From Metapseudomonas otitidis (lineage in GTDB: Bacteria > Pseudomonadota > Gammaproteobacteria > Pseudomonadales > Pseudomonadaceae), in NCBI RefSeq assembly GCF_900111835.1, contig NZ_FOJP01000008.1:213895-277894 (forward strand): 64,000 bases of DNA, given 5' to 3'. Positions 3 to 23,830 of this stretch are shown one piece after another. The position numbers and the translations under genes were made by a program. The notes beneath the pieces are model-generated. The model searched no databases. It saw only the letters and a list, made by a program, of their open reading frames with translations, and had not been told where the DNA came from. The first letter of the stretch is position 1; each line of letters opens with the position of its first letter.

Positions 3-674
3 CGCGTGGGCCGCAACCTGCTGCGACTGGAGAACCAGGCCGAGCGCCGGGAAAAGCGCCTGCGCGTGGAACTGGACGACGGCACCCGCATCGATGCGCT
101 GTTCGCCGAGCAGGACTTCCAGCCCATGGGGTTGTGTACCCCGGCCGGGGCGGACGGCTGGGTCTACGCGCGCAAGGTGGCCGGTGTGCCCTGCCAGGGG
201 CGGATCGAGAGCGCACTGGGGCAGTTCGACCTCGGCACGCTGGGGGCCTACGCCCACCACGACTGGTCGGCCGGCTACATGCGCCCGGAAACGGTGTGGA
301 ACTGGGCTTGCCTGTCCGGCGAGGCGGCGGGGATTCGCCTCGGCCTGAACCTGTCCTGCGGGGTCAACGAGACCAGCTTCACCGAGAACTGCTTCTGGCT
401 GGACGGCGAGCTGGTCAAGGTCGACACCGTGCGCTTCGCCTTCGATCGCCAGCAGCCGCTTGAGCCCTGGCACATCACCTCCCATGACGGGCAGGTGGAC
501 CTGCGCTTCCGTGGCGAGGGGCTGCACAAGGAACGCCTCAACGCCGGCTTCCTGGCCAGCAACTTCAAGCAGGTCTTCGGCCGTTTCGACGGCGTTCTCC
601 GCCCCCACGGCCGTCCGGCGATCCCGGTGGAGGGGTTGTGGGGCTTTGTCGAAGATCAATATGTGAAGTGGTAG
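3..674 (+). CDS. DUF2804 family protein, C-terminal part (cut by window edge)
   Basis: The frame is open to the left edge, so this is the C-terminal 223 residues of a longer protein; a GTG at 6 is only an internal codon candidate. The sequence resembles the DUF2804 family (usually about 330-350 residues), with Trp/Gly-rich beta-type segments such as YAHHDWSAGYMRPE and LNLSCGVNETSFTEN and an ending in WGFVEDQYVKW. No catalytic function is established for the family that I can name; a lipocalin-like, hydroxyneurosporene-synthase-like beta fold is often suggested. It ends about 80 bases before the MarR gene and reads in the same direction, with no clear terminator between. Confidence 0.75.
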   Translation, partial: RVGRNLLRLENQAERREKRLRVELDDGTRIDALFAEQDFQPMGLCTPAGADGWVYARKVAGVPCQGRIESALGQFDLGTLGAYAHHDWSAGYMRPETVWNWACLSGEAAGIRLGLNLSCGVNETSFTENCFWLDGELVKVDTVRFAFDRQQPLEPWHITSHDGQVDLRFRGEGLHKERLNAGFLASNFKQVFGRFDGVLRPHGRPAIPVEGLWGFVEDQYVKW

Positions 675-711
675 TTACAGTCTGCGGCTTGCTCCGGATC
701 GCCGCCTATGG

Positions 712-730
712 TTAGCTCGCTAATTATTAG
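712..730 (+). promoter_or_regulatory. Overlapping inverted repeats, candidate MarR operator
   Basis: TTAGC-TC-GCTAA (712-723) overlaps CTAAT-T-ATTAG (720-730), both with perfect arms, 24 bases before the marR start at 754. MarR regulators usually bind short AT-rich palindromes in their own promoter, so autoregulation of the marR-MFS pair is likely. The binding itself is inference. Confidence 0.5.
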
Positions 731-753
731 TTTTGGCTGTCAGAGTCCGTTTC

Positions 754-1188
754 ATGTCCCACACCGATCAACACCGCTTCGCCATGCAGCTTGCGCAGAT
801 GTCGCGGGCCTGGCGAGCGGAGATGGACCGTCGTCTGGTCGACCTAGGCCTTTCCCAAGCTCGTTGGCTGGTGCTGCTGCACCTGGCCCGCTTCGAAGAA
901 CTTCCCACCCAGCGCGAGCTGGCCAAGAGCGTCGGCGTCGAAGGCCCGACGCTGGCGCGCCTGCTCGATAGCCTCGAAGCCCAGGAGCTGGTCCAGCGCC
1001 TGGCCGTGGCCGAGGACCGCCGGGCGAAGAAGATCACCCTCTGCCCCAAGGCCAGGCCGCTGATCGAGAAGATCGAGTCGATCTCCAGCCAGCTGCGCCG
1101 TGAGGTCTTCACCGGCATCGACGAGGACGAGCTGCGTCGTTGCCAGCAGGTGCACGCGAAGATCCTGGCCAACCTGGAACGGCGCTGA
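754..1188 (+). CDS. MarR-family transcriptional regulator
   Basis: A 144-residue winged-helix regulator. The wHTH core runs roughly from residue 30 to 95 (LSQARWLVLLHLAR, PTQRELAKSVGVEGPTLARL, then the wing with AEDRRAKKITL), with long N- and C-terminal helices for dimerisation, the normal MarR layout and length. ATG at 754 is preferred over an upstream TTG at 733 because MSHTDQHRFAMQ begins the family-like helix. Its stop overlaps the start of the MFS gene (TGATG), so the two are co-transcribed and translationally coupled. The usual role of such a pair is repression of an efflux pump until a ligand binds the regulator; the ligand is unknown. Confidence 0.88.
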   Translation: MSHTDQHRFAMQLAQMSRAWRAEMDRRLVDLGLSQARWLVLLHLARFEELPTQRELAKSVGVEGPTLARLLDSLEAQELVQRLAVAEDRRAKKITLCPKARPLIEKIESISSQLRREVFTGIDEDELRRCQQVHAKILANLERR

Positions 1189-2591
1189 TGTCGCAGGACC
1201 TCGAGGCCCTGCACACCCGCTACGGTTCCCGCTATCCCCACTGGCTGCTGGCGCTGCTGATGGTCGGCAGCATGGCGATGATCCTCGCCTCCACCAGCAT
1301 CAACGTGGCCTTGCCGACCCTGATGGCGGAGTTCGCCATCGGCCGGCCCATGGCCCAGTGGCTGGCCACGGGCTTTCTCGCAGCGATGACCGCCGGGCTC
1401 CTGCTCTCGGCCTGGGCCCAGGCCCGGCTGGGCGCGCGGCGTACCGTCCAGCTCGGCATCGGGCTGTTCATCCTCGCCTCGCTGCTCGCGTTGCTGGCCC
1501 AGGCGGCCTGGCAACTCATCGCACTGCGCATTGTCCAGGGCGCCTGTGCCGGGGTCATCCAGCCCCTGGCGATGGTGCTGATCTTCCGCGTGTTCGCTGA
1601 TGGCGGGCGCGGCATGGCCCTGGGCAGCTACGGCCTGGGGGTGATGGTGGCGCCGACCCTCGGCCCCACCATCGGTGGCTACCTGATCGACCAGTTCGGC
1701 TGGCAGGCCGTGTTCTGGCTGCCGCTGCCCATGTGCGTGGCGGCGCTGGTTGGCGCGCAATGGCTGATGCCCAGCGACCGCAACCGGCAGACGCCGGGCG
1801 TGGACCTGCCGGCCTTCGGCTTCCTTTGTGTGGCGCTGTTCGCCCTGCTCGGCGCCCTGGCCGAAGCCCAGCGCTTCGGCTGGCTGGCACCGTCGTGCTG
1901 GGTACCCGGGCTGCTGGGGATCGCGGCAGTCGGCGGATTTGCCTGGCGCAGCCGGGTGTCGACCCGGCCGCTGTTGCCGATGCGCCTGTGGCGTCATGTC
2001 GCGTTCCGCAAGGCCAGCTGGGTGGCCCTGGCATTGGGCCTCGGGCTGTACGGCTCCACCTACCTGATCCCGCTCTACCTGCAGACCGTCGATGGCTACA
2101 GCGCCGGGCGTGCCGGGCTGCTCCTGTTGCCCACCGGGGTGGTGCTGGGGCTGGCGTCGTTCGCCGGTGGCTGGCTGAGTGACCGGCTGTCGGCCGCCGC
2201 GTTGCTGGTGGGCGGCCTGCTGGTGTTCGCCCTGTCCTGCTTCGGCCTGGGGGTGGTGGGGGAGGGGGCGAGCTTCCTGGTGCTGTGCTTCTGGGCCTGC
2301 GTCGGCCGTCTCGGCCTGGGCCTGCTGCTGCCGGCCCTGAGCACCGGCTCGCTGGATGTGCTGAGCGCCGAGGAACTGGCCCAGGGCGCCGGCGCCATCA
2401 CCTTCGTGCGCCAGCTGGGCGGCGCATTCGGGGTCAACCTGGTGACCTTCTTCCTCGAGTGGCGGCACCTGGCAGGCGGCGGTGATCACGCGGCCAATGC
2501 CTGGGCCTTCCAGCAGACCTTTTGGCTGGTAACGCTGCTTTTCCTGCTGGCGATCTGGCCCGCCCTGGGCGTGCGCGCGACAAAAGCCTGA
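1188..2591 (+). CDS. MFS multidrug efflux transporter (DHA2/EmrB-QacA type)
   Basis: A 467-residue inner-membrane protein with a dozen or more hydrophobic segments and the cytoplasmic loop 2-3 signature of the major facilitator family (AQARLGARRTVQ, about residues 82-93). The motif-C-like region GSYGLGVMVAPTLGPTIGGY points to a drug/proton antiporter, and length and layout fit the 14-segment DHA2 group. The start at 1188 overlaps the marR stop; a longer frame from 1140 would run into the regulator and lacks support. Expected substrate: small toxic hydrophobic compounds or drugs, exported by the proton gradient. There is no membrane-fusion or outer-membrane partner beside it, so it probably works alone. 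Confidence 0.85.
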   Translation: MSQDLEALHTRYGSRYPHWLLALLMVGSMAMILASTSINVALPTLMAEFAIGRPMAQWLATGFLAAMTAGLLLSAWAQARLGARRTVQLGIGLFILASLLALLAQAAWQLIALRIVQGACAGVIQPLAMVLIFRVFADGGRGMALGSYGLGVMVAPTLGPTIGGYLIDQFGWQAVFWLPLPMCVAALVGAQWLMPSDRNRQTPGVDLPAFGFLCVALFALLGALAEAQRFGWLAPSCWVPGLLGIAAVGGFAWRSRVSTRPLLPMRLWRHVAFRKASWVALALGLGLYGSTYLIPLYLQTVDGYSAGRAGLLLLPTGVVLGLASFAGGWLSDRLSAAALLVGGLLVFALSCFGLGVVGEGASFLVLCFWACVGRLGLGLLLPALSTGSLDVLSAEELAQGAGAITFVRQLGGAFGVNLVTFFLEWRHLAGGGDHAANAWAFQQTFWLVTLLFLLAIWPALGVRATKA

Positions 2592-2843
2592 CGAAGCCGC
2601 TATAACCGCCCAGCGGTTGTGTGAATTCCGTCACTTTCATGACGAAAATCCAGTAAGATTCGTCCGTAATGGCCCGATGCCTTTACTTAGGGCGTTTCGG
2701 GAAATTGCATCCATACTAGTTTCAGCCGGGTTACACAGGGATCGGCCCGACATCACATCGTTCAATGCCAACGCCCGCTTTGGCCATTCCATGGATCGTG
2801 GAGTCGTCGTGGCGTTCGAGCCGGCATGACCGGGGGAGGGCTC

Positions 2844-5051
2844 ATGGCTCGAGTCAACAAGTTCCTGGTGGCGCTCGCCTCGGGACCGCTGCTTTATTCA
2901 GGCCTGGCGTCCGCGCTGGGCCTGGGCGACATCACCCTGCATTCCGCGCTCAACCAGCCGCTGGAGGCGGACATCGAGCTGCTGGACCTGGGCGACCTGG
3001 GGGAAAGCGACATCAAGGTCAGCCTGGCGCCGAACGAGGTGTTCGAGCGCTCGGGGGTCGAGCGGTTCATCTTCCTCAACGACCTGCGTTTCAGCCCGAT
3101 GATCCGTGGCAGCCGGGGCCACATTCGCGTGGCGTCGAGCAAGCCGGTGCGCGAGCCCTACCTGAATTTCATCGTCGAAGTGGCGCGTCCCAACGGCCGC
3201 CTGCTGCGCGAGTACACCCTGCTGCTGGACCCGCCGGAGTCCTCGGCCTACCGACCGGTGGCTGCGCCCCTGGCGGATGCCCGTACCGCCAGCGCCCGGC
3301 CGACCCCGGCAGTGCCGGCCGCGCCCCGCGAGGCGCCCCCGGCCACCCAGGGCAAGCGCTACACCGTGGCCCGTGGCGACAGCCTCTGGGGCATCGCCCA
3401 ACGCCTGAGCGCCGGCAGCGGCATGAGCACGGCGCAGATGATGAACGGCATCCACGCCCTCAACGCCGCAGCCTTCGCCAATGGTGATCCGAACCGCCTG
3501 AGCGTCGGCCAGAGCCTGCTGTTGCCGGATGCCGCGCGTGCCGAGCCGGCTGCGCCGGTGGCCCCGGTGTCCGCCCCCGACAGCCTGCGCCTGTCCGAGC
3601 CCGATGCCCCGGTCGCGCCCAATGCCCCGGCTCCCCACGAGCTGCCGCAGCAACTGGCCGAGGTGCAGCGTCGCGTCGACACCGAGCTGGCCAACAGCGA
3701 GAGCGAGCGCCTGCAGCTGCGCCAGGACATCGCCGACCTGCAGCTGAAGCTGGAATCGCTGCAGCAACTGATGGCGGAAAAGGATGCCCAGCTGGCGAGC
3801 CTGAAAGGGGCCCTCCAGCAGGGCGCCGTTGCGCAGCCTCCGGCCGAGCCCGTCGCACCCGCTGCCACCACCGATACGCCCCCCGCCGAGCAACCGGCTG
3901 CACAGCCCCAGGCCGAAGCGGCTCCGGCGCCGGCCCAGCCGAGCGCAGTGCCCGCCGTCGAGCCCGAGGACACCGGTCTGTTCACCTGGCCCAACAGCCT
4001 GCTGTTCCTCGGCGTGCCGGCCATCCTACTGGCGCTTCTGCTGCTGGTCGTGCGTCGGCGCAAGCCCGCGCCTGACGACACGCCGGCCGAGCCGGTGAAC
4101 GCCCCGGCAACGGAGCAGCAGCGTCCCCGCGCCACCGTCACTCCGCTGGTGCGCCCGGCCGCGCCTGCTGCCGTCGTCACCCCGGTTGAGGCCCCCGTCG
4201 CTCCGGCGGCCCGGGTCGAAGCCCCGCTGTCGGCACCCCGTCCGTCCAGCGATTCCCTGGACGGCGCGAACATCTACATCGCCTACGGGCGCTTCCGCGA
4301 TGCCGAGTCGGCGCTGCGCACCGCCATCGTCCAGGAGCCGCGTCGTACCGACCTGCGCCTGCGCCTGCTGGAGGTACTGGGTGAGCTGGGCGAGTCCGCC
4401 GCGTTCGCCAGCGAGGCGCACACCCTGGCCGAGATGGGCATGGAGCCGGCGCGCATCGATGCGATCAAGGCGCGCTACCCCGCTGTCGATGTGCCGTCCG
4501 AGGCGGCGCCGATGCTGGAGGAGACCACCTTCATCCTCAACGAGACGCCCCTGGTCGACGAAGCGCCCAGCGCCCCGCGCAACGGCCTGGACGACGAGTT
4601 CACCGACGAGTTCCAGCTCAACCTCGCCGACCTGCCCCTGGATGCCGATTGGGACAGCCTCAGCCCGTTCAAACCCGATGCGCCCAAGGGCCGTGCGGCG
4701 CGTGATGCCGAAAGCACGGTGAAGGCACCGGAGCCGGTGGTGGACCCGTCGTTCAAGAGCAACCTCCACGAGTTGCCCGAAGTGTTCGAGCTGGATCACC
4801 TGGGCGAACCGGAAGAAGCCGAGCCGCTGCCCCTGGCCGAGGCCGACGAGGACCTGGTGTTCGACCTGGGCGACGACGACCTGGATCACCTGGCCGCGCG
4901 CCAGGAGAACATCATGCGGCTCAACCTGGCCCTGGCCTACATCGACCAGGGCGATATGGAAAGCGCCTGCAACATCCTCAACGAGGTCATCGACCAGGGC
5001 GACGAGGAGCAGAAACAGGAAGCCCGCGAGCTGCTCGCGCGGATCGCCTGA
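2844..5051 (+). CDS. FimV/HubP-like peptidoglycan-binding polar protein
   Basis: A 735-residue bitopic inner-membrane protein with FimV architecture. An N-terminal signal segment (about 1-25) is followed by the conserved FimV N-terminal domain (about 26-135, starting LGLGDITLHSALNQPL), a LysM domain (about 170-230, YTVARGDSLWGIAQRL), a coiled coil (about 268-330), a Pro/Ala-rich linker, one membrane segment (about 380-400), a long acidic cytoplasmic part, and the C-terminal FimV motif (about 686-735, ending QEARELLARIA). It is not fimV itself: there is no asd/truA context; position beside plpD and a marR gene matches the PA3340-type paralog of P. aeruginosa. ATG at 2844 follows a GGGGGAGGG ribosome site. 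Likely role: polar scaffold or envelope landmark. Confidence 0.85.
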   Translation: MARVNKFLVALASGPLLYSGLASALGLGDITLHSALNQPLEADIELLDLGDLGESDIKVSLAPNEVFERSGVERFIFLNDLRFSPMIRGSRGHIRVASSKPVREPYLNFIVEVARPNGRLLREYTLLLDPPESSAYRPVAAPLADARTASARPTPAVPAAPREAPPATQGKRYTVARGDSLWGIAQRLSAGSGMSTAQMMNGIHALNAAAFANGDPNRLSVGQSLLLPDAARAEPAAPVAPVSAPDSLRLSEPDAPVAPNAPAPHELPQQLAEVQRRVDTELANSESERLQLRQDIADLQLKLESLQQLMAEKDAQLASLKGALQQGAVAQPPAEPVAPAATTDTPPAEQPAAQPQAEAAPAPAQPSAVPAVEPEDTGLFTWPNSLLFLGVPAILLALLLLVVRRRKPAPDDTPAEPVNAPATEQQRPRATVTPLVRPAAPAAVVTPVEAPVAPAARVEAPLSAPRPSSDSLDGANIYIAYGRFRDAESALRTAIVQEPRRTDLRLRLLEVLGELGESAAFASEAHTLAEMGMEPARIDAIKARYPAVDVPSEAAPMLEETTFILNETPLVDEAPSAPRNGLDDEFTDEFQLNLADLPLDADWDSLSPFKPDAPKGRAARDAESTVKAPEPVVDPSFKSNLHELPEVFELDHLGEPEEAEPLPLAEADEDLVFDLGDDDLDHLAARQENIMRLNLALAYIDQGDMESACNILNEVIDQGDEEQKQEARELLARIA

Positions 5052-5067
5052 TCACGCCCCCACCTCC

Positions 5068-5097
5068 AACCGGCGCCCTAGGGCGCCGGTTTTCTTT
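5068..5097. terminator. Bidirectional intrinsic terminator between fimV-like gene and plpD
   Basis: An 11-bp perfect stem (AACCGGCGCCC, loop TA, GGGCGCCGGTT) followed on the plus strand by TTTTCTTT. It sits 17 bases after the fimV-like stop and 20 bases before the stop of the convergent plpD gene. Confidence 0.85.
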
Positions 5098-5117
5098 GCG
5101 CTGTCGTCAGCCCTGGC

Positions 5118-7310
5118 TCAGAACGTTCGCCCCAGGTTGAGGTAGAGCGCCCGCTCGGCGGCATCGTTGAGGCCGTAGCTGAAGTCCAGTGGGCCTAGGG
5201 GCGTGTCGAAGCTGACGAACAGGCTGCCGGCGTTGATGTAGCCGCTGTCGAAGCTGTTGTCCCGGTTCCACGCGCGGCCGCGCTCCAGGCTGGCGCCCAC
5301 GTAGAAGGGGAAGTCCAGCGGCAGGAACGAGCGCTGGGTCATGCGCCGGTAGTAGATCGCCCGCGCCAGGCTGATGTTCTGCCCGGCCACCGAGTTCTCG
5401 CGGAAGCCCGACAGCTGGCGCGCACCGCCCAGCTGGAAGCTGGAGAGCACCACCTCGGTGCTGTCCAGGGTGCGCCCGTAGCGGCCGCCCAGCACCAGGG
5501 TGTCGGGGCCCCGGGTGAAGGCCTTGTCCAGGCTGAGTTCCCACTGTCGGTAGCGGTCGTCGGCGCCCAGGCTGGGGTCGAACTGGCGCACGGTGAGCTT
5601 GATGTCCTCCCCGCTGTGGGGGTAGTCGACGTTATCCAGGGTGTCGAAGGAGTACTTCGCCTCGTAGTAGCCGTTGCTGAAGCTGAAGCTGGGCAGGCGC
5701 CGGTCGCCGATGCGCACGTCGGCCTCGCCCCATTCCTGGCCGATGCCGAGGCGCAGTTCGCCGTTGTTGGCGATCTGCCGGCCCAGGTTGAAGCCGTAGC
5801 CGTAGCGCTGCAGGCGGTATTCGGCGATGGGGTCGTTGTCCAGCGCGGCTTCGATGTTCTGCGCCGAGGCCGCCAGGTAGGGCGCGACGAAGTAGCGCGA
5901 GCCGTAGTCCAGCGGCTGGTAGAACTCGCTGTAGAGCACCTGCTCGCTGCCGATCTGGGCCCGGGTCAGCCACTCGGCGCCCAGGTCATTGAGGCCGTTC
6001 ACCCGGTAGCTGGCGCCGAGGTTGTAGGTGCCGCCGCCGCGCATGTCGTCGGAGAGGTTCAGGCCCAGGCGCAGGTAGTCGGTGCCGTTGCGCTTGCCCC
6101 GGGCGCTGATCACCAGGGTGTTGCCGTCCTTGTGCTTGACCACGCGGTAATGCACCTGCTCGAAGTAGTCGAGGCCGTAGAGGGTGCCCATGTCGGCCTG
6201 CAGGCGCGCGAGGTCCAGAGGCTCGCCGAGCTCCTGGCGGATCTGCCGGCGGATCACCTCGTCGCCCACCTTGGAGTCGTTCTCCACCTGGATGCGGGTG
6301 ATCACCGGGCGCCGCTCTCCCGGTTGGCGCGCCTGCACCAGTTCCGCGTCCTGGCCGGGGCGGGTATCCCGGCGCAGCGTCGCCAGGCGGGCCTGGAGGA
6401 TGGTGGCGGCCCGGTAGCCGGCGTCGATCACTTCGCGGGCGTGGCTGAAGTCGGTGGCGCTGTAGCCGGCCAGGGGCGGCTGCACGAGGATGTCGTCGGG
6501 GCCGAGGGTGGCGAGCTGCGCCTCGGAGTTGCGCCGGGTCATCAGCGTCACCGACTGGTTGAGCACGTCCACCACGGTGGTCAGCTCCTTGCGGCTGCGC
6601 AGGGGCGTGCCGATGTCGACGGTGATCACCCGGTCCACGCCCATCTCCCGCGCCACGTCCACCGGGATGTTGTCCACCATGCCGCCGTCCACCAGCAGGC
6701 GCCCGTCCACTTCCACCGGGGCGAACACCGCCGGGATCGACATGCTGGCGCGGATGGCCTGGGGCAGGTGGCCCTTGCGGAACACCACCTTCTCGCCGGT
6801 GGAGATGTCGGTGGCCACGGCGCGGAAGGGGATCCCCAGGCGGTCGAAGTCCCGGGTGTCGCTGGTGTGCACCAGCAGGCTCTCCAGCAGGAGCGCGAGG
6901 TTCTGGCCCTGGATCACCCCGAGCGGCAGGCCCAGGCTGCCGTCGTCGCGGAAGCTGAGCTTCTGCTTCACCAGGAAGTCGCGGTCGTCCTGCTTGCGGC
7001 GGAAGGGCACGTCCTCCCGCGCGGGGGCGTCGGAGAGGGCCTGGCGCCAGTCCAGGGTCAGCGCCAGCTTCTCCAGCTCCTCCACGCTGTAGCCGGAGGC
7101 ATAGAGCCCGCCGATCACCGCGCCCATGCTGGTGCCGGCGATGGCATCGATGTGGATGCCCTGCTCCTCCAGTGCCTTGAGCACGCCGATGTGGGCCAGC
7201 CCGCGGGCGGCGCCGCCGGAGAGCACCAGGCCGACGCGGGGCCGTGCGGCATCGGCCACGGCGCAGCAGGTGGTGAGCAGGAGGGTGAGGGCGAGGAGCA
7301 CGCGGCGCAT
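5118..7310 (-). CDS. plpD: PlpD-type patatin autotransporter (type Vd secretion)
   Basis: A 730-residue protein, nearly the length of P. aeruginosa PlpD. It has a signal peptide (about 1-20), a patatin lipase domain (about 25-220) with the oxyanion-hole motif LSGGAARG, the nucleophile elbow GTSMGA and the dyad motif VDGGMVDN, then a POTRA-like segment (about 315-390) and an Omp85-like 16-strand beta barrel that ends in a terminal Phe (YLNLGRTF), typical of outer-membrane proteins. Established for the family: the patatin domain is a class A1 phospholipase moved to the surface by its own barrel. GGGAAG lies 7 bases before the ATG. The preceding fimV-like gene is convergent, so plpD is a single transcription unit. 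Confidence 0.92.
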   Translation of the reverse strand: MRRVLLALTLLLTTCCAVADAARPRVGLVLSGGAARGLAHIGVLKALEEQGIHIDAIAGTSMGAVIGGLYASGYSVEELEKLALTLDWRQALSDAPAREDVPFRRKQDDRDFLVKQKLSFRDDGSLGLPLGVIQGQNLALLLESLLVHTSDTRDFDRLGIPFRAVATDISTGEKVVFRKGHLPQAIRASMSIPAVFAPVEVDGRLLVDGGMVDNIPVDVAREMGVDRVITVDIGTPLRSRKELTTVVDVLNQSVTLMTRRNSEAQLATLGPDDILVQPPLAGYSATDFSHAREVIDAGYRAATILQARLATLRRDTRPGQDAELVQARQPGERRPVITRIQVENDSKVGDEVIRRQIRQELGEPLDLARLQADMGTLYGLDYFEQVHYRVVKHKDGNTLVISARGKRNGTDYLRLGLNLSDDMRGGGTYNLGASYRVNGLNDLGAEWLTRAQIGSEQVLYSEFYQPLDYGSRYFVAPYLAASAQNIEAALDNDPIAEYRLQRYGYGFNLGRQIANNGELRLGIGQEWGEADVRIGDRRLPSFSFSNGYYEAKYSFDTLDNVDYPHSGEDIKLTVRQFDPSLGADDRYRQWELSLDKAFTRGPDTLVLGGRYGRTLDSTEVVLSSFQLGGARQLSGFRENSVAGQNISLARAIYYRRMTQRSFLPLDFPFYVGASLERGRAWNRDNSFDSGYINAGSLFVSFDTPLGPLDFSYGLNDAAERALYLNLGRTF

Positions 7311-7381: not shown

Positions 7382-7666
7382 ATGAGCGCTGCCAAGCCCG
7401 AGATCGTCATCACCTATTGCACCCAGTGCCAGTGGCTGCTGCGTGCCGCCTGGCTGGCCCAGGAACTGCTCAGCACCTTCTCCGACGACCTCGGCCGGGT
7501 GGCGCTGGAGCCCGGCACCGGTGGCGTGTTCCGCATCACCTGCGATGGCGTGGAGATCTGGGAGCGCAAGGCCGACGGCGGCTTCCCCGAGGCCAAGGTG
7601 CTCAAGCAGCGGGTCCGCGACCGCATCGACCCGGCCCGTGACCTGGGCCACAACGACCGCCCCTGA
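7382..7666 (+). CDS. SelT/SelW/SelH-family selenoprotein-like (Rdx) protein
   Basis: A 94-residue thioredoxin-like fold protein with the Rdx signature: a short beta strand then YCTQCQW, giving a CxxC motif at residues 13-16, followed by an amphipathic helix and the GGVFRITCDGVEIWERK beta hairpin. In eukaryotic homologues the second Cys is selenocysteine; here both are ordinary TGC codons and there is no in-frame TGA. Bacterial members are uncharacterised but expected to act in thiol redox chemistry. It is divergent from plpD with a shared 71-base intergenic region. There is no operon partner apart from the DUF6515-like gene 118 bases downstream, which has its own regulatory site. Confidence 0.85.
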   Translation: MSAAKPEIVITYCTQCQWLLRAAWLAQELLSTFSDDLGRVALEPGTGGVFRITCDGVEIWERKADGGFPEAKVLKQRVRDRIDPARDLGHNDRP

Positions 7667-7684: not shown

Positions 7685-7700
7685 TTTACCGCCCCTTTAC
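7685..7700 (+). promoter_or_regulatory. CpxR-like box before the DUF6515-like gene
   Basis: TTTAC-CGCCCC-TTTAC, i.e. GTAAA-N6-GTAAA on the other strand, close to the CpxR consensus of two GTAAA units 5-6 bases apart. It lies 84 bases before the ATG at 7785. The same box, in the same orientation and at the same distance, precedes the cpxP-like gene (22660-22675). Beyond the box both promoters share CAG and CTGACCGC at matching offsets (here 7702-7704 and 7707-7714). A weak -10 (AATAAT, 7734-7739) sits 33 bases past the box. Confidence 0.65.
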
Positions 7701-7729
7701 ACAGCACTGACCGCGTATCGACCGGGCGC

Positions 7730-7764
7730 GGCGAATAATTCGCCCGTGGCCGCCGTATGCGGCC
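7730..7764 (+). other. Two adjacent small hairpins in the leader of the DUF6515-like gene
   Basis: GGCGAAT-A-ATTCGCC (7730-7744) and GGCCGC-CGTAT-GCGGCC (7748-7764), both with perfect arms, lie 20-55 bases before the start codon. The first overlaps the putative -10 region; the second would be in the mRNA leader. Confidence 0.4.
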
Positions 7765-7784: not shown

Positions 7785-8291
7785 ATGTCGGTGAAACGAA
7801 CCCTGGTCCTGGCGCTCGTGGCGCTGGGTCTGTCCACCCAGGTGCTGGCCGGTCCGCCCGGCCCGGGCGGTCCCGGTGGGCCGGGGCCTGGCGGCCATGG
7901 CTGGGGCAACTGGGGCCCCGGGCCGGGAGATGGCCATGGCCACGGGCTGCCGGACGGAGCCCGCGAACTATGGATCGGCAGCATGCTGTACTTCGTTGCC
8001 GCCGGTTCCTACTACCTGTGGAACAGCACGGCACAACGCTACGAGGTGGTCGCCCCGCCGCCCACGGTGCAGGGCAACAGCGTGGCCAGCTACGAAGTGA
8101 TCGCCTACCCGGCCAACGGCCAGAGCGTCGACCAGCAGGGCCGTGATCGCTACGAGTGCCACGGTTGGGCCGTGGGCCAGAGTGGCTTCGACCCCGCCAC
8201 CGCGACGCGCCCGGTGGGCGCCGAGGCCACCGAGCGCTACCGCCGGGCCCTGGGCGCCTGCCTGGCCGGGCGCGGCTACAGCGTCAACTGA
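7785..8291 (+). CDS. Small exported DUF6515-like protein with Gly/Pro-rich N-terminus
   Basis: A 168-residue protein with a clear signal peptide (MSVKRTLVLALVALGLSTQVLA, cut probably after residue 22). A low-complexity Gly/Pro/His stretch (about 23-55) follows, then YFVAAGSYYLWNS, APPPTVQGNS and a C-terminal block with YECHGWAVGQSGFDPA and one further Cys near the end. The Tyr-x-Cys-x-x-Trp-Ala and Gly-Phe-Asp-Pro pattern is that of small periplasmic DUF6515/glycine-zipper-associated proteins; no function is known. A CpxR-like box stands upstream, suggesting an envelope-stress role. Its 3' end overlaps the convergent DMT transporter gene by 8 bases. Confidence 0.75.
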   Translation: MSVKRTLVLALVALGLSTQVLAGPPGPGGPGGPGPGGHGWGNWGPGPGDGHGHGLPDGARELWIGSMLYFVAAGSYYLWNSTAQRYEVVAPPPTVQGNSVASYEVIAYPANGQSVDQQGRDRYECHGWAVGQSGFDPATATRPVGAEATERYRRALGACLAGRGYSVN

Positions 8292-9171
8292 CCTGGCGTT
8301 GCCCGGCTGCGCCGTCCATCGGCGGCGCAGCCCGGGCAGGCAGGGCGATGGCGGCGATGATCAGCACGCCGCCCACCAGCATCCGCAGGGACGGCTCCTC
8401 GCTGAACAGCCACCAGGCGAAGGCGATGCCGTAGACCGGCTCCAGGGCGAAGATCACCGCCGTGGTCCGTGCCTTGAGCACCTTCAGGCTGGCCACGAAC
8501 AGGCTGTGGGCGAGGCCGGTGCAGAGCACGCCGAGCAGGGCGATCCACAGCCAGTCCAGCGCGCGGGGCTCGGCGAGGCTCGGCCACACCGGCAACACCA
8601 GCAGCCCGACGATGGTGAGGTTCTGCCAGAGCGCGGCGTGCACCGGGTCCAGCCCCCGCGTGGTGGCGCGGTTGAGCAGCGACAGCAGGGCGAACAGCAA
8701 GCCGGAGAACACGGCGGCGATCAGCCCCTGGGTGGCATCGCTGGCCAGGTCGAACTCCGGCGTCACCAGCACCAGGCCGACGCTCACCAGGGCCACCACC
8801 AGCACTTCGCGCAGGTGGATGCGTTCGCGGAACAGCAGCGCCTCCAGCAACAGGGTGAAGGCCGGGAAGCTGGCGAAGCCGAGAGTGGCGATGGCCACGC
8901 CGCCGACCTTCACCGCCTGGAAGAACAGCACCCAGTGCCCGCCCAGCAGTAGGCCGCCCAGCAGCAGCGCGGGCAACTGGCGCCGCCCCGGCCGTGCGCC
9001 GCGGTCACCGCCGACGAAGCGGGCGAACAGCGCCAGGGCGATGACGGCGAATGCCGCGCGACCCAAGGTGATCACCGTCGGCGAGGTTTCCGCCAGCTTG
9101 CCGAAGATGCCGGAGAGGCCGAACAGCAGGGCGCCCAGGTGGATGGCGAGCAGGGCGTTGCGCGGCGTCAT
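8284..9171 (-). CDS. DMT-superfamily (EamA) transporter
   Basis: A 295-residue inner-membrane protein with about ten hydrophobic segments arranged as two EamA repeats (about residues 5-140 and 155-285). The repeat ends GLALVTPEF-like and the second repeat opening LQNLTIVGLLVLPV are typical of the drug/metabolite transporter superfamily. Substrate cannot be told from sequence; family members export amino acids, metabolites or drugs. Its ATG overlaps the csaA stop (ATGA), so it is translated from the csaA transcript. Its stop overlaps the end of the convergent gene at 7785-8291. Confidence 0.85.
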   Translation of the reverse strand: MTPRNALLAIHLGALLFGLSGIFGKLAETSPTVITLGRAAFAVIALALFARFVGGDRGARPGRRQLPALLLGGLLLGGHWVLFFQAVKVGGVAIATLGFASFPAFTLLLEALLFRERIHLREVLVVALVSVGLVLVTPEFDLASDATQGLIAAVFSGLLFALLSLLNRATTRGLDPVHAALWQNLTIVGLLVLPVWPSLAEPRALDWLWIALLGVLCTGLAHSLFVASLKVLKARTTAVIFALEPVYGIAFAWWLFSEEPSLRMLVGGVLIIAAIALPARAAPPMDGAAGQRQVS

Positions 9172-20759: not shown

Positions 20760-22073
20760 TCAGGTGGTCGGCAGCGACAGGGTGGCGATGAAGCCACCCT
20801 GCGGGTGATTGGCCAGGGTCAGGCTGCCGCCGTGGCGCTCCACGGCGCGACGGGCGATGGCCAGGCCCAGGCCATGCCCGGCACCACTCTGGTTCGGCGC
20901 ACGGAAGAAGGGCTCGCCCAGTTGGGCCAGGTGATCGGCGGCGACCCCGGGGCCGTGGTCGCGCACGCTGATCGTCACGTGCTGCGGTAATGCCTTCACC
21001 TCGATATCCACCGGTTGCCCGGCCGGGCTGAAGCGCAGCGCGTTGCGCAGCAGGTTGTCCAGCGCACGTTCCAGCATGTCCGGCCAGCCCTGCAGGTGCG
21101 GTTCGCCTTCGCAGTGGATGCGCACCTCCTGCTCGGGCGCCAGCAGCCGGGCGTCTTCCCTGAGCTTTTCCAGTATCGGCCGCAGGACGATGGGGTGGCG
21201 TGCGCCCGGCTCGGCGTCGAGGCGGGCGAGGGCGAGGATCTCGCTGATCAGCGCCTCCAGCCGGTCGCATTCCTGGGCCAGCCGTGGCCAGAGCCCTTCA
21301 CGCTCCGCCGCCGGCGCCCGCTCGGCCAGGGCCAGCGCCACCCGCAGGCGGGCCAGGGGTGAGCGCAGCTCGTGGGAAACATCGCGCAGTAGCTGCCGCT
21401 GGCTGCCGATGAGCCCCTGGAGGCGCTGGCCCATGCGGTTGAAGTCACCGGCCAGCACGCCCAGTTCGTCCCGCCGCCGTGCCAGCCGGGCCAGGCTGTC
21501 CTGCTGGTAGGCGGTCTGCCCCAGGTCGTGCACGGCGCTGCGCAGGCGGCCGAGAGGGCGGGTGATGGAGAGGGTCAGCATCAGGCTGAACAGCGTCAGC
21601 ACCACCAGGGCGATGCCCAGGGCGCTGAGGGGCCAGAGCAGGCTGCCACGGTGCCAGGCCTCCAGTTCCGGGAAGGGGATGCGGTAGATCAGCAGGAAGT
21701 TCTCGCCACTGCGGGGGCTGGTGTATTCCTCGGTGATGCGTCGCCACGGTAGGTGGCCGTCGTGCTGGCGTGCTTCGAAGGCGGCGGCGCGGGGCGGGAA
21801 GGTGCCGCGCACCACGGGCTGGCCGTTGTCGTTGAGGATCTGCACGTCGATGCGGGCGCGGCGCTTGAACTGTTCGAGGAAGCGCTGGGCCTCGCCACGG
21901 CCGTTGACCTCGTAGCGCTGCACCAGGCTTTCCGCCAGGCCCTGCAGGGCCGGGTGGCGGCTGAGGATCCAGGCATCCTGGTTCAGCGCGCGACCGAGCA
22001 GCAGGGAGAGGCCGGCGACCAGGGCCAGGGCCAGCCAGAAGGCGCCGAGGATGCGCCAGAACAGTGAACGCAC
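20760..22073 (-). CDS. cpxA: CpxA-type sensor histidine kinase
   Basis: A 437-residue inner-membrane kinase. Order: membrane segment (about 7-28), periplasmic sensor (about 29-145), second membrane segment (about 146-168), HAMP (about 170-225), phosphoacceptor helix with RDVSHELRSPLARLR (His about residue 231), and the HATPase with DNLLRNALRFSP (N box), DHGPGVA (G1) and GAGHGLGLAIARRA (G2). The start is GTG at 22073 with AAGGAG six bases upstream. It is last in the run yciB-yciI-orf-cpxR-cpxP-cpxA and senses envelope protein misfolding in the Cpx scheme; in P. aeruginosa the equivalent is CpxS. A hairpin separates it from cpxP. Confidence 0.88.
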   Translation of the reverse strand: MRSLFWRILGAFWLALALVAGLSLLLGRALNQDAWILSRHPALQGLAESLVQRYEVNGRGEAQRFLEQFKRRARIDVQILNDNGQPVVRGTFPPRAAAFEARQHDGHLPWRRITEEYTSPRSGENFLLIYRIPFPELEAWHRGSLLWPLSALGIALVVLTLFSLMLTLSITRPLGRLRSAVHDLGQTAYQQDSLARLARRRDELGVLAGDFNRMGQRLQGLIGSQRQLLRDVSHELRSPLARLRVALALAERAPAAEREGLWPRLAQECDRLEALISEILALARLDAEPGARHPIVLRPILEKLREDARLLAPEQEVRIHCEGEPHLQGWPDMLERALDNLLRNALRFSPAGQPVDIEVKALPQHVTISVRDHGPGVAADHLAQLGEPFFRAPNQSGAGHGLGLAIARRAVERHGGSLTLANHPQGGFIATLSLPTT

Positions 22074-22143: not shown

Positions 22144-22575
22144 TTACTGGGCCTTCTGGGCGCGCTGGGCTTTCCAGGCCTCGAATTCGACGCGCTCGGC
22201 GCGGCGTTCGTCCATCTTCTTCACTTCGGCGTCGAAGTCCTTCTGCTGCTCCGGGGTCAGCAGGGCGCGGATGTCGGCGCGGTTCTTGTCTTCGCTGGCC
22301 TTGATCTCGGCCTCCATGGCCTTGCGTTCCGCCTCGGGCAGCTTGTCCAGGTACTTGCGGGTGATGTCCTGGCGGGCCTTCATGCTTTCGCCCATCAGCT
22401 TGCCGACCTTCTGGCGCTGCTCGCGGGTCAGGTCCAGTTCCTTGAACAGGTGCGGGCCACCGTGGCCACCAGGGCCGCCGAAGCCCGGCTCGCCACGCGG
22501 GCCGCCTTCGGGCATGGCCATGGCGACGGTGGGCAGGGCGGCTGCGAACAGCAGGGCGGCGATAGTCTTGCGCAT
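22144..22575 (-). CDS. CpxP/Spy-like periplasmic chaperone
   Basis: A 143-residue exported helical protein. Signal peptide MRKTIAALLFAAALPTVAMA is followed by a Gly-rich linker and the two LTxxQ motifs of the Spy/CpxP family: LTREQRQKVGKLMGE (about 50-64) and LTPEQQKDFDAEVKK (about 106-120). Established for the family: Spy is an ATP-independent chaperone and CpxP inhibits the kinase CpxA. Unlike E. coli, where cpxP is divergent from cpxRA, here it sits between cpxR and cpxA. A CpxR-like box lies 84 bases before the ATG, which supports feedback control by CpxR. Confidence 0.88.
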   Translation of the reverse strand: MRKTIAALLFAAALPTVAMAMPEGGPRGEPGFGGPGGHGGPHLFKELDLTREQRQKVGKLMGESMKARQDITRKYLDKLPEAERKAMEAEIKASEDKNRADIRALLTPEQQKDFDAEVKKMDERRAERVEFEAWKAQRAQKAQ

Positions 22576-22659
22576 GGTCTGTCTCCTTGTCTCTTGAACC
22601 GGCCGGTTGCCGGATGAGCCCAGTCTAGGGAGCGCAAGGTCAAGGGCGGTCAGCCCTGG

Positions 22660-22675
22660 GTAAAGCTTCGGTAAA
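22660..22675 (-). promoter_or_regulatory. CpxR box before the cpxP-like gene
   Basis: GTAAA-GCTTCG-GTAAA on the plus strand (TTTAC-CGAAGC-TTTAC on the coding strand), the CpxR consensus with a 6-base spacer. It lies inside the 123-base cpxR-cpxP gap. Downstream on the coding strand come CAG (22658-22656), CTGACCGC (22653-22646) and a -10-like TAGACT (22627-22622), all at the same offsets as in the promoter at 7685-7739. Confidence 0.75.
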
Positions 22676-22698: not shown

Positions 22699-23376
22699 TC
22701 AGACGGCGTAGTAGTAGCCCCGGCTGCGCAGGGCGACGATGCGCGGGCGGCCGTCGGCGTGGGGGCCGAGCTTCTTGCGCAGGTTGCTGACGTGCATGTC
22801 CAGGCTGCGGTCGTACAGGGTCAGCTTGCGGCCCAGGGCCAATTGCGCCAGCTCCTGCTTGTCCAGCGGTTCGCCAGGCTGGCGCAGCAGGGCTTCCAGC
22901 AGACGGCCTTCGGAGAGGGTGAGGCTGACCTCGTGTCCGCCCACGCTGACCACGCCGCGAATCGGGCTGTAGCACAGGTCGCCCAGCTCCAGCTGGCTGG
23001 ACTGCGAGGGCCCCTGGCTGCGCCGCAGCACGGCGCGCAGGCGTGCGGTCAGCTCACGGGGGTCGCAGGGCTTGGCCAGGTAGTCGTCGGCGCCCAGTTC
23101 CAGGCCGAGGATGCGGTCCAGGGGTTCGCCCCGGGCCGACAGCATCACCACGGGCAGCTCGGGGTGGTCGCTGCGCAATTGCTTGAGCAGCTCCAGCCCG
23201 CTGCCGTCGGGCAGCATCACGTCCAGCACCACGGCGGCGGGGGGGTGGCCTGCCAGCGCGGCGCGTGCGGAGATGCCGTCGTGGCACGCCCGGGCGCTGA
23301 AGCCTTCCTGGGAGAGCCAGCTGATCAGCAGCTCGCAGAGCTCCTGGTCATCATCGATAAGCAGCAGTTCGCTCAT
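22699..23376 (-). CDS. cpxR: CpxR-type OmpR-family response regulator
   Basis: A 225-residue response regulator. The receiver domain (about 1-115) has the acidic pair in LLIDDDQELCE, phosphoacceptor Asp in VVLDVMLPDGSGLE (about residue 52), Ser in VVMLSARGE and Lys in DDYLAKPCDPRE. The OmpR-type winged helix (about 130-225) includes LTLSEGRLLEALL, RSLDMHVSNLRKKLGP and the terminal wing RSRGYYYAV. ATG at 23376 gives the normal length; a longer upstream frame overlaps the preceding gene. With cpxA and cpxP it makes an envelope-stress two-component system; P. aeruginosa CpxR also controls mexAB-oprM. Confidence 0.9.
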   Translation of the reverse strand: MSELLLIDDDQELCELLISWLSQEGFSARACHDGISARAALAGHPPAAVVLDVMLPDGSGLELLKQLRSDHPELPVVMLSARGEPLDRILGLELGADDYLAKPCDPRELTARLRAVLRRSQGPSQSSQLELGDLCYSPIRGVVSVGGHEVSLTLSEGRLLEALLRQPGEPLDKQELAQLALGRKLTLYDRSLDMHVSNLRKKLGPHADGRPRIVALRSRGYYYAV

Positions 23377-23392
23377 GTCGCGGGGGTCGTCT

Positions 23393-23830
23393 TCAGTTGA
23401 TCCATTGGCGCGGCTGGCGGCGGCCGCCACGCAGCAGTGCGCCGGCGAGCAAGGAGAACAGGCAGGCACCGCCGCCCACGGCGAACCACATCTGTTCCTC
23501 GCTGACGAGGGGCGGATTGCGGTTGGCCTGGGCTTCACGCAGCTGCAGCTTGAGGCGCTGGTTTTCCTGGCGCAGGCGGGTCAGTTGCGCGCCGTCCTGC
23601 TCGCTGGCGTTGCCACGGTCGGCCAACTGGGCGGCCAGGGCCTCCCGCTGCCGCTCGCTCTCGGCCAGTCGCTGGGTCAGTTGGGCAAGCTCCGCCGCCA
23701 GTGGGTTCACCACGGGCGCCGGCTCTACCGCCGGAGAAAGCGGTGGAGCGGAGGGCACAGGCTCTTCGGCATGGGCCAGGGCGGCGGACAGGGCGAAGGC
23801 GAACAGCAGGGACAGCGGAACCTGGCGCAT
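23393..23830 (-). CDS. Exported coiled-coil protein with C-terminal membrane anchor, unknown function
   Basis: A 145-residue protein I cannot name. It has a signal peptide (MRQVPLSLLFAFALSAALAHA), a Pro-rich linker (about 22-42), an alpha-helical coiled coil (about 45-112, LAELAQLTQRLAESERQRE and LRQENQRLKLQLREAQ) and a C-terminal membrane segment (MWFAVGGGACLFSLLAGALL) followed by basic residues. The layout resembles the SH3-domain plus coiled-coil plus membrane-anchor family (TIGR04211-like), but without an SH3 domain. It is 16 bases before cpxR and 35 bases after yciI, so part of the cpx transcript; a periplasmic stress role is possible but unproven. Confidence 0.7.
   Translation of the reverse strand: MRQVPLSLLFAFALSAALAHAEEPVPSAPPLSPAVEPAPVVNPLAAELAQLTQRLAESERQREALAAQLADRGNASEQDGAQLTRLRQENQRLKLQLREAQANRNPPLVSEEQMWFAVGGGACLFSLLAGALLRGGRRQPRQWIN

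Follow-up and report, generated by a model that had tools for sequence, protein, structure and literature searches.

A triple CpxR-type site before a short DUF6515-like gene of Metapseudomonas otitidis, shared with cpxP and muxA, suggests a new member of the Pseudomonas Cpx regulon

Introduction

In the pho box, PhoB, a response regulator of the OmpR family, uses direct repeats with an 11-base period that stand in for the -35 element. Closer to the locus described here are the targets of CpxR in Pseudomonas. In P. aeruginosa PA14 without cpxR, the supply of CpxR raised the activity of a cpxP::lacZ fusion from 42 to 5245 Miller units and that of a muxA::lacZ fusion from 34 to 1613; CpxR with the D52A substitution gave no such rise, so that Asp52 is needed, and the cpxP and muxA orthologues of P. 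putida were CpxR-activated as well (passages of PMC5063474). In the passages of PMC12802237 that deal with the PAO1 regulon, GTCAA is given as a SELEX variant of the CpxR site, its reverse being TTGAC, and many canonical E. coli targets in envelope homeostasis are reported to be missing from the P. aeruginosa Cpx regulon. The same passages list a CpxR site for PA3965 at -315/-326, with both motif and DAP-Seq marked as positive.

Beyond the rows of PMC12802237, the open-access texts consulted, PMC6954232 and PMC4981712 among them, gave no statement naming a DUF6515 gene as a target of CpxR. The main text of the eLife atlas has no passage on CpxR, the excerpts of PMC10433974 concern cpxP and MerR only, and our literature search found no paper joining CpxR, a direct repeat, 11 bp and the OmpR family.

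Results

A box of three half-sites shared by two promoters

We analysed 64,000 nucleotides of Metapseudomonas otitidis DNA; this whole stretch is called the window. Its relevant features are as follows.

7382..7666, + strand: SelT/SelW/SelH (Rdx) gene, upstream of the box (PF10262)
7685..7689, + strand: CpxR-type half-site 1, TTTAC (exact triple match)
7696..7700, + strand: half-site 2, TTTAC, 11 bases on (exact triple match)
7707..7711, + strand: half-site 3, CTGAC, 11 bases on, which would overlap the -35 region (exact triple match)
7734..7739, + strand: predicted -10 AATAAT of the short DUF6515-like gene, offset 49 from the box start
7785..8291, + strand: short DUF6515-like gene, with a predicted signal peptide, a Gly/Pro/His-rich stretch, a beta segment and a C-terminal part of two helices in which Cys125 and Cys159 are conserved
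8284..9171, - strand: EamA transporter gene, convergent to the short DUF6515-like gene (PF00892)
20760..22073, - strand: cpxS/cpxA-like histidine kinase (the top two NCBIfam models are CpxA, 196.6 and 166 bits, both under cut-off)
22144..22575, - strand: cpxP/Spy-like gene of the LTXXQ type (PF07813, 28.6 bits, cut-off 24.3)
22622..22627, - strand: predicted -10 TAGACT of cpxP, offset 48
22649..22675, - strand: triple CpxR-type box of the cpxP-like gene, with TTTAC at 22675 and 22664 and CTGAC at 22653
22699..23376, - strand: cpxR-like response regulator (top NCBIfam model CpxR, 183 bits, cut-off 341)

An earlier note on this DNA had claimed that the short DUF6515-like gene and the cpxP-like gene have the same promoter layout, and this was borne out. 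The 30-base pattern TTTACCG-N4-TTTAC-N-CAG-N2-CTGACCGC occurs at 7685-7714 (+), starting 19 bases past the end of the SelT/SelW/SelH (Rdx) gene, and at 22675-22646 (-), all fixed positions matching at both sites, and 100 dinucleotide shuffles of the window gave no match with up to three mismatches. The 16-base boxes are identical at 13 positions, as the note had said. Two further parts of the layout hold only locally. The distance from the box start to the ATG is 100 bases (84 from the box end) before both genes, so the claim of equal spacing stands for the window; elsewhere the distance varies from about 95 to 200 bases (rough values from alignments), and the equality is not conserved. Similarly, the CAG and CCGC tail is present in both window promoters and is not general in other genomes: CCGC is conserved before cpxP, not before orthologues of the short DUF6515-like gene. 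For want of conservation, CAG and CCGC were rejected as functional parts. The two promoters agree at 24 of their first 30 bases and at 17 of the next 70, which is about chance; since the likeness is limited to the first 30 bases, a copied promoter was rejected too.

The unit that remains is three half-sites, TTTAC/TTTAC/CTGAC, with an exact 11-base period (starts 7685, 7696 and 7707). In orthologues the third reads CTGAC, CTTAC, TTGAC or TTTAC; its pattern was derived from the first loci examined. Allowing two mismatches, TTTAC-N6-TTTAC-N6-YTKAC is found at only two places of the window, before the DUF6515-like and cpxP-like genes (shuffle mean 0.02). The note had read the TTTAC repeat as the reverse of the CpxR repeat, and TTTAC is indeed the reverse of the tested GTAAA (PMC12802237, in part); TTTAC-N6-TTTAC at 7685-7700, 100 bases before the ATG, fits GTAAA-N4-8-GTAAA sought in either orientation.

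Position of the -10 element

The claim that the -10 lies at a nearly equal offset in the two window promoters held as well (49 for AATAAT and 48 for TAGACT, counted from the box start). We selected 35 DUF6515-like and 23 cpxP loci from the box-bearing ones, which gave 30 and 21 distinct promoters, respectively. The best -10 was at offset 49 in 27 of the 30 DUF6515-like promoters (48 in two, 50 in one), a constancy that is conservation among related promoters and not 30 independent cases, and at offset 48 in all 21 cpxP promoters. With shuffled spacers (300 rounds), at most 7 of 30 and 6 of 21, respectively, fell at any one offset. Half-site 3 would span about -39 to -35 relative to the inferred start.

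The cpxP promoters also have a conserved extra TTGAC at offset 32, ten bases past half-site 3 (22643-22639 (-) in the window), which is perhaps a fourth half-site.

The cpx locus of the window

The gene at 22144-22575 belongs to the LTXXQ family (28.6 bits against 24.3) and scores under the cut-offs of the NCBIfam Spy and CpxP equivalogs. For the response regulator, whose start was inferred from an HMM match beginning at residue 55 of ORF 22699-23538, CpxR scored highest among the 87 NCBIfam models with a match, though under its curated cut-off. The gene order cpxR-cpxP-cpxS agrees with the one described in the text of PMC12802237. In the measured cases with the DUF6515-like and cpxP boxes on one contig, they are 14.3-15.2 kb apart (10 records from 9 distinct genomes, one genome, G007 and G026, being present twice). 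Single-contig genomes of genus group 9 carry similar boxes far from the cpxP-type box, and the 15-kb linkage is not general.

Occurrence of the triple in genomes

In the 6.34-Mb genome we counted 7 occurrences of TTTAC-N6-TTTAC, compared with 2 in the backward control. The exact triple (third part CTKAC) was found at only three places, before the short DUF6515-like gene, cpxP and muxA. The third of these triples, on the opposite strand, precedes a MuxA/MdtA-type adaptor gene (455 bits, cut-off 391). Each of the other 33 triple-like places listed departs from the pattern at 2 or 3 positions; the control gave 37 places with up to 3 mismatches.

Among 45 loci found by protein, the pair was present with at most one mismatch in 38, the second half-site being CTTAC in some; the loci without it were L020 (5-base spacing), L048 and L050-L054. 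The 29 genomes scanned in full were those chosen for having a homologue, with 29 of the 45 loci as handles. They contained 68 exact triples, compared with none in the backward control: 29 before cpxP (one per genome, counting that of L156), 16 before the DUF6515-like gene, 15 before muxA and 8 unassigned. The unassigned ones include L125, although its box is identical to the muxA boxes of L129, L134 and L137. That only 16 of the 29 genomes have the exact triple at the DUF6515-like gene counts against the CpxR reading. Exact triples were also seen before frames partly resembling small exported proteins or lipoproteins (L098, L110, L142, L157, L158 and L162), which are candidates for further CpxR targets.

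In a family sample of 148 genomes, the triple (not split by gene) was found in 114, with 2 hits in the backward control. It was found in 0 of 18 and 0 of 13 genomes of genus groups 5 and 6, which also counts against CpxR. A protein search found relatives in 65 of the 148 genomes. Short-type genes carried the triple with 0-1 mismatch in 25 of 31 cases from eight genus groups, and none of 73 backward-read regions had it even at two mismatches; the note would have given up its reading had the box not been conserved before orthologues. The count of 31 comes from 33 after leaving out L288 (long-type with a gap) and L289 (a remnant). Three of the six exceptions have a 5-base spacing plus the third half-site (one CTAAC), one has an exact pair with a poor third, one a weak pair and one nothing.

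As for the long DUF6515 genes, an exact pair was found in 14 of 15 of genus group 9 (one of these has, further upstream, a third half-site with a single mismatch) and a pair in 1 of 2 of group 5; there was no pair in the 13 of group 6 or the 10 of group 14. The link with the box is therefore not general to the family.

Gain and loss of gene and box

In the window's genus, selW is kept in all 18 genomes and the short DUF6515-like gene is present in 4; only these 4 have more than two triples. In 13 of the 14 gene-less genomes, selW is followed by eamA with neither gene nor box between them (the best places had 5-7 mismatches, as in the background); an hldD-type gene lies between selW and eamA in some and is absent in others. 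The 14th, L291, has no box, and no eamA in range. From this pattern, box and gene go together in this genus.

Two loci from elsewhere were also recorded. L145 (G045:C137:11008-11034) carries a triple box that is followed, at the same offset, by a -10-like GACAAT and resembles the short-type promoters of relatives; no DUF6515-like gene was found after it, which counts against the CpxR reading, and the box is perhaps a promoter left by gene loss. At L289 (G159, on a contig of 6,588,339 bases), a long DUF6515 gene has lost, in one deletion, its box and all but a C-terminal remnant.

The short DUF6515-like gene and its protein

Since the EamA gene is convergent, the short DUF6515-like gene is probably monocistronic. 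Its protein has 168 residues, and a signal-peptide-like N-terminus followed by the Gly/Pro/His-rich stretch, recognised by reading the sequence, makes export probable. Aligned with 39 relatives, it showed 25 invariant columns, including Cys125 and Cys159. The AlphaFold2 model (mean pLDDT 74.5, pTM 0.42) has four strands (60-89) and two helices (115-133 and 146-162), with very low confidence at 19-50. Foldseek against the PDB gave 111 matches at E 10 and none at 0.001, and a function from the fold was dropped; a PDB sequence search gave no match at E 1.

The name 'DUF6515-like' used in the note needs a qualification. A Pfam search found no family at E 10, so the protein is not a member of DUF6515 (PF20125), which five long relatives match at 43-55 bits (cut-off 24.9). 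A long relative, from residue 123 to its end, aligns with the short protein (E 2.2e-40), which lacks the first half of the DUF6515 stretch. The alignment with the later half of the long protein thus stands and the Pfam match does not; by sequence comparison, we regard the protein as a shorter relative of DUF6515, not as Pfam DUF6515 itself.

Several variants of the locus were seen. At G008:C1:4031313-4031735 the exact box is kept before an open frame of 142 residues, from which roughly residues 111-136, with conserved Cys125, are missing. In L122 an ADP-heptose epimerase (hldD-type) gene (4435-5433) lies between selW and the DUF6515-like gene, as in several lineages. In a plasmid search, among the best 20 of 25 records only H1 (P. 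aeruginosa) matched the gene, and the rest matched the selW part of the query.

A related site in P. aeruginosa

A P. aeruginosa plasmid record, L055, carries two 16-mers at 315 and 326 bases from the start of an Lrp/AsnC gene. These 16-mers and distances match the Cpx regulon list of PAO1 (rows of PMC12802237); the list differs in that, in printed order, the 16-mers are paired with the distances the other way round. On the side of the box away from the Lrp gene, L055 has a DUF6515 gene beside fieF; it can be read from an in-frame ATG that lies 111 bases past the box start and precedes the annotated start by 21 bases. The gene of the P24 sRNA (RF00629) lies directly upstream of the Cpx box of this long DUF6515 gene, at 3235-3489 between the box and the Lrp gene (also at L043 629-884), and PMC6954232 tabulates P24 among biofilm-induced genes with a log2 value of 3.6. 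The gene order of L055 fits PA3965, P24, PA3964, PA3963.

Because P24 stands between the box and the Lrp gene and the in-frame ATG follows 111 bases on, we assign the site to the DUF6515 gene: from the gene arrangement we infer that the real target of the site published for PA3965 is the divergent long DUF6515 gene, probably PA3964. In an activated cpxS mutant of PAO1, PA3963 was up by 2.54 (log2) and PA3963a by 5.41, the latter entry being described as covering part of PA3964, and the Table 2 rows of PMC12802237, as available, include PA3963 and PA3963a and none for PA3964 itself. With up to two mismatches, the P. aeruginosa box was absent from 25 genomes of that genus group; the PAO1 link therefore rests on L055 and PMC12802237.

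Discussion

The box at 7685-7711 is, very probably, an activating CpxR~P site that would turn on the short DUF6515-like gene along with cpxP and muxABC-opmB under envelope stress. The note's idea of common control gains from the fact that cpxP and muxA, whose lacZ fusions are activated by CpxR (PMC5063474), carry this box too. Since the site is kept by related genes in several Pseudomonas lineages, CpxR likely activates the gene on envelope damage, and the gene is likely a new member of the known CpxR regulon. CpxR~P would bind the half-sites head to tail, with half-site 3 at the place of the -35 element, and would thereby recruit sigma-70 RNA polymerase to a promoter without a good -35. The product would leave the cytoplasm by the Sec route and have its role in the periplasm or at the outer membrane; tentatively, it could be a small envelope-stabilising protein with a Cys125-Cys159 disulfide.

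The half-sites of OmpR-family regulators resemble one another, and genomes of this kind encode many such regulators, which leaves room for one other than CpxR to read the box before the DUF6515-like gene. We consider such a reader improbable, given that this exact triple also stands before cpxP in all 29 genomes and before muxA in 15, that the P. aeruginosa cpxP and muxA promoters need CpxR with Asp52 (PMC5063474, passages), and that TTTAC and TTGAC are the reverses of the tested GTAAA and the SELEX GTCAA (PMC12802237, passages). A little less probable still is that CpxR binds and represses, or merely fine-tunes, the DUF6515-like gene. There is a precedent in E. coli mdtABCD, which has CpxR sites and is negatively regulated by CpxR (as stated in PMC5063474); against it, the geometry of the box is that of cpxP, an activated promoter, and RNA around the related PAO1 locus rises in the activated cpxS mutant (PA3963a, log2FC 5.41, in the rows of PMC12802237).

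That the two promoters are alike in layout by chance can practically be dismissed. In favour of chance, CAG, CCGC and the equal distance to the ATG do not extend to other genomes. For the triple box, however, chance is already refuted by the shuffles without a match, the conservation, the backward controls and the joint presence and absence in the genus.

Activation by CpxR being the preferred reading, a broader picture can be drawn, to which we give slightly better than even chances. The Pseudomonas Cpx response would have, besides CpxP and MuxABC-OpmB, a third core output in short DUF6515-like envelope proteins, reached through a triple rather than double CpxR site with 11-base phasing and a fixed -10 geometry, and in the P. 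aeruginosa group the longer DUF6515 paralogue would have been drawn in separately through a differently built box. If true, envelope stress has recruited the DUF6515-like family twice. A target of this kind, strongly conserved, uncharacterised and probably periplasmic, would give direct access to the role of Cpx in the Pseudomonas envelope. For searches, the triple site discriminates better than GTAAA-N4-8-GTAAA, giving next to no background in these genomes; it also points to a probable misassignment in the published list (PA3965 instead of PA3964).

Compared with the known cpxP and muxABC-opmB promoters (PMC5063474, in part), the locus has the same half-sites with the same 11-base spacing. 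Its box has the direction of that of cpxP and nearly the same -10 distance (49 versus 48), and cpxP differs by the further TTGAC at offset 32; at muxA the box is in the opposite orientation in 15 of 15 cases. Unlike those targets, the DUF6515-like one is an uncharacterised, patchily distributed and probably exported protein. The arrangement is like the pho box of PhoB in that direct repeats of an OmpR-family regulator replace the -35 every 11 bases; it differs in its half-site, and the CpxR-type array stops roughly one turn farther away from the -10.
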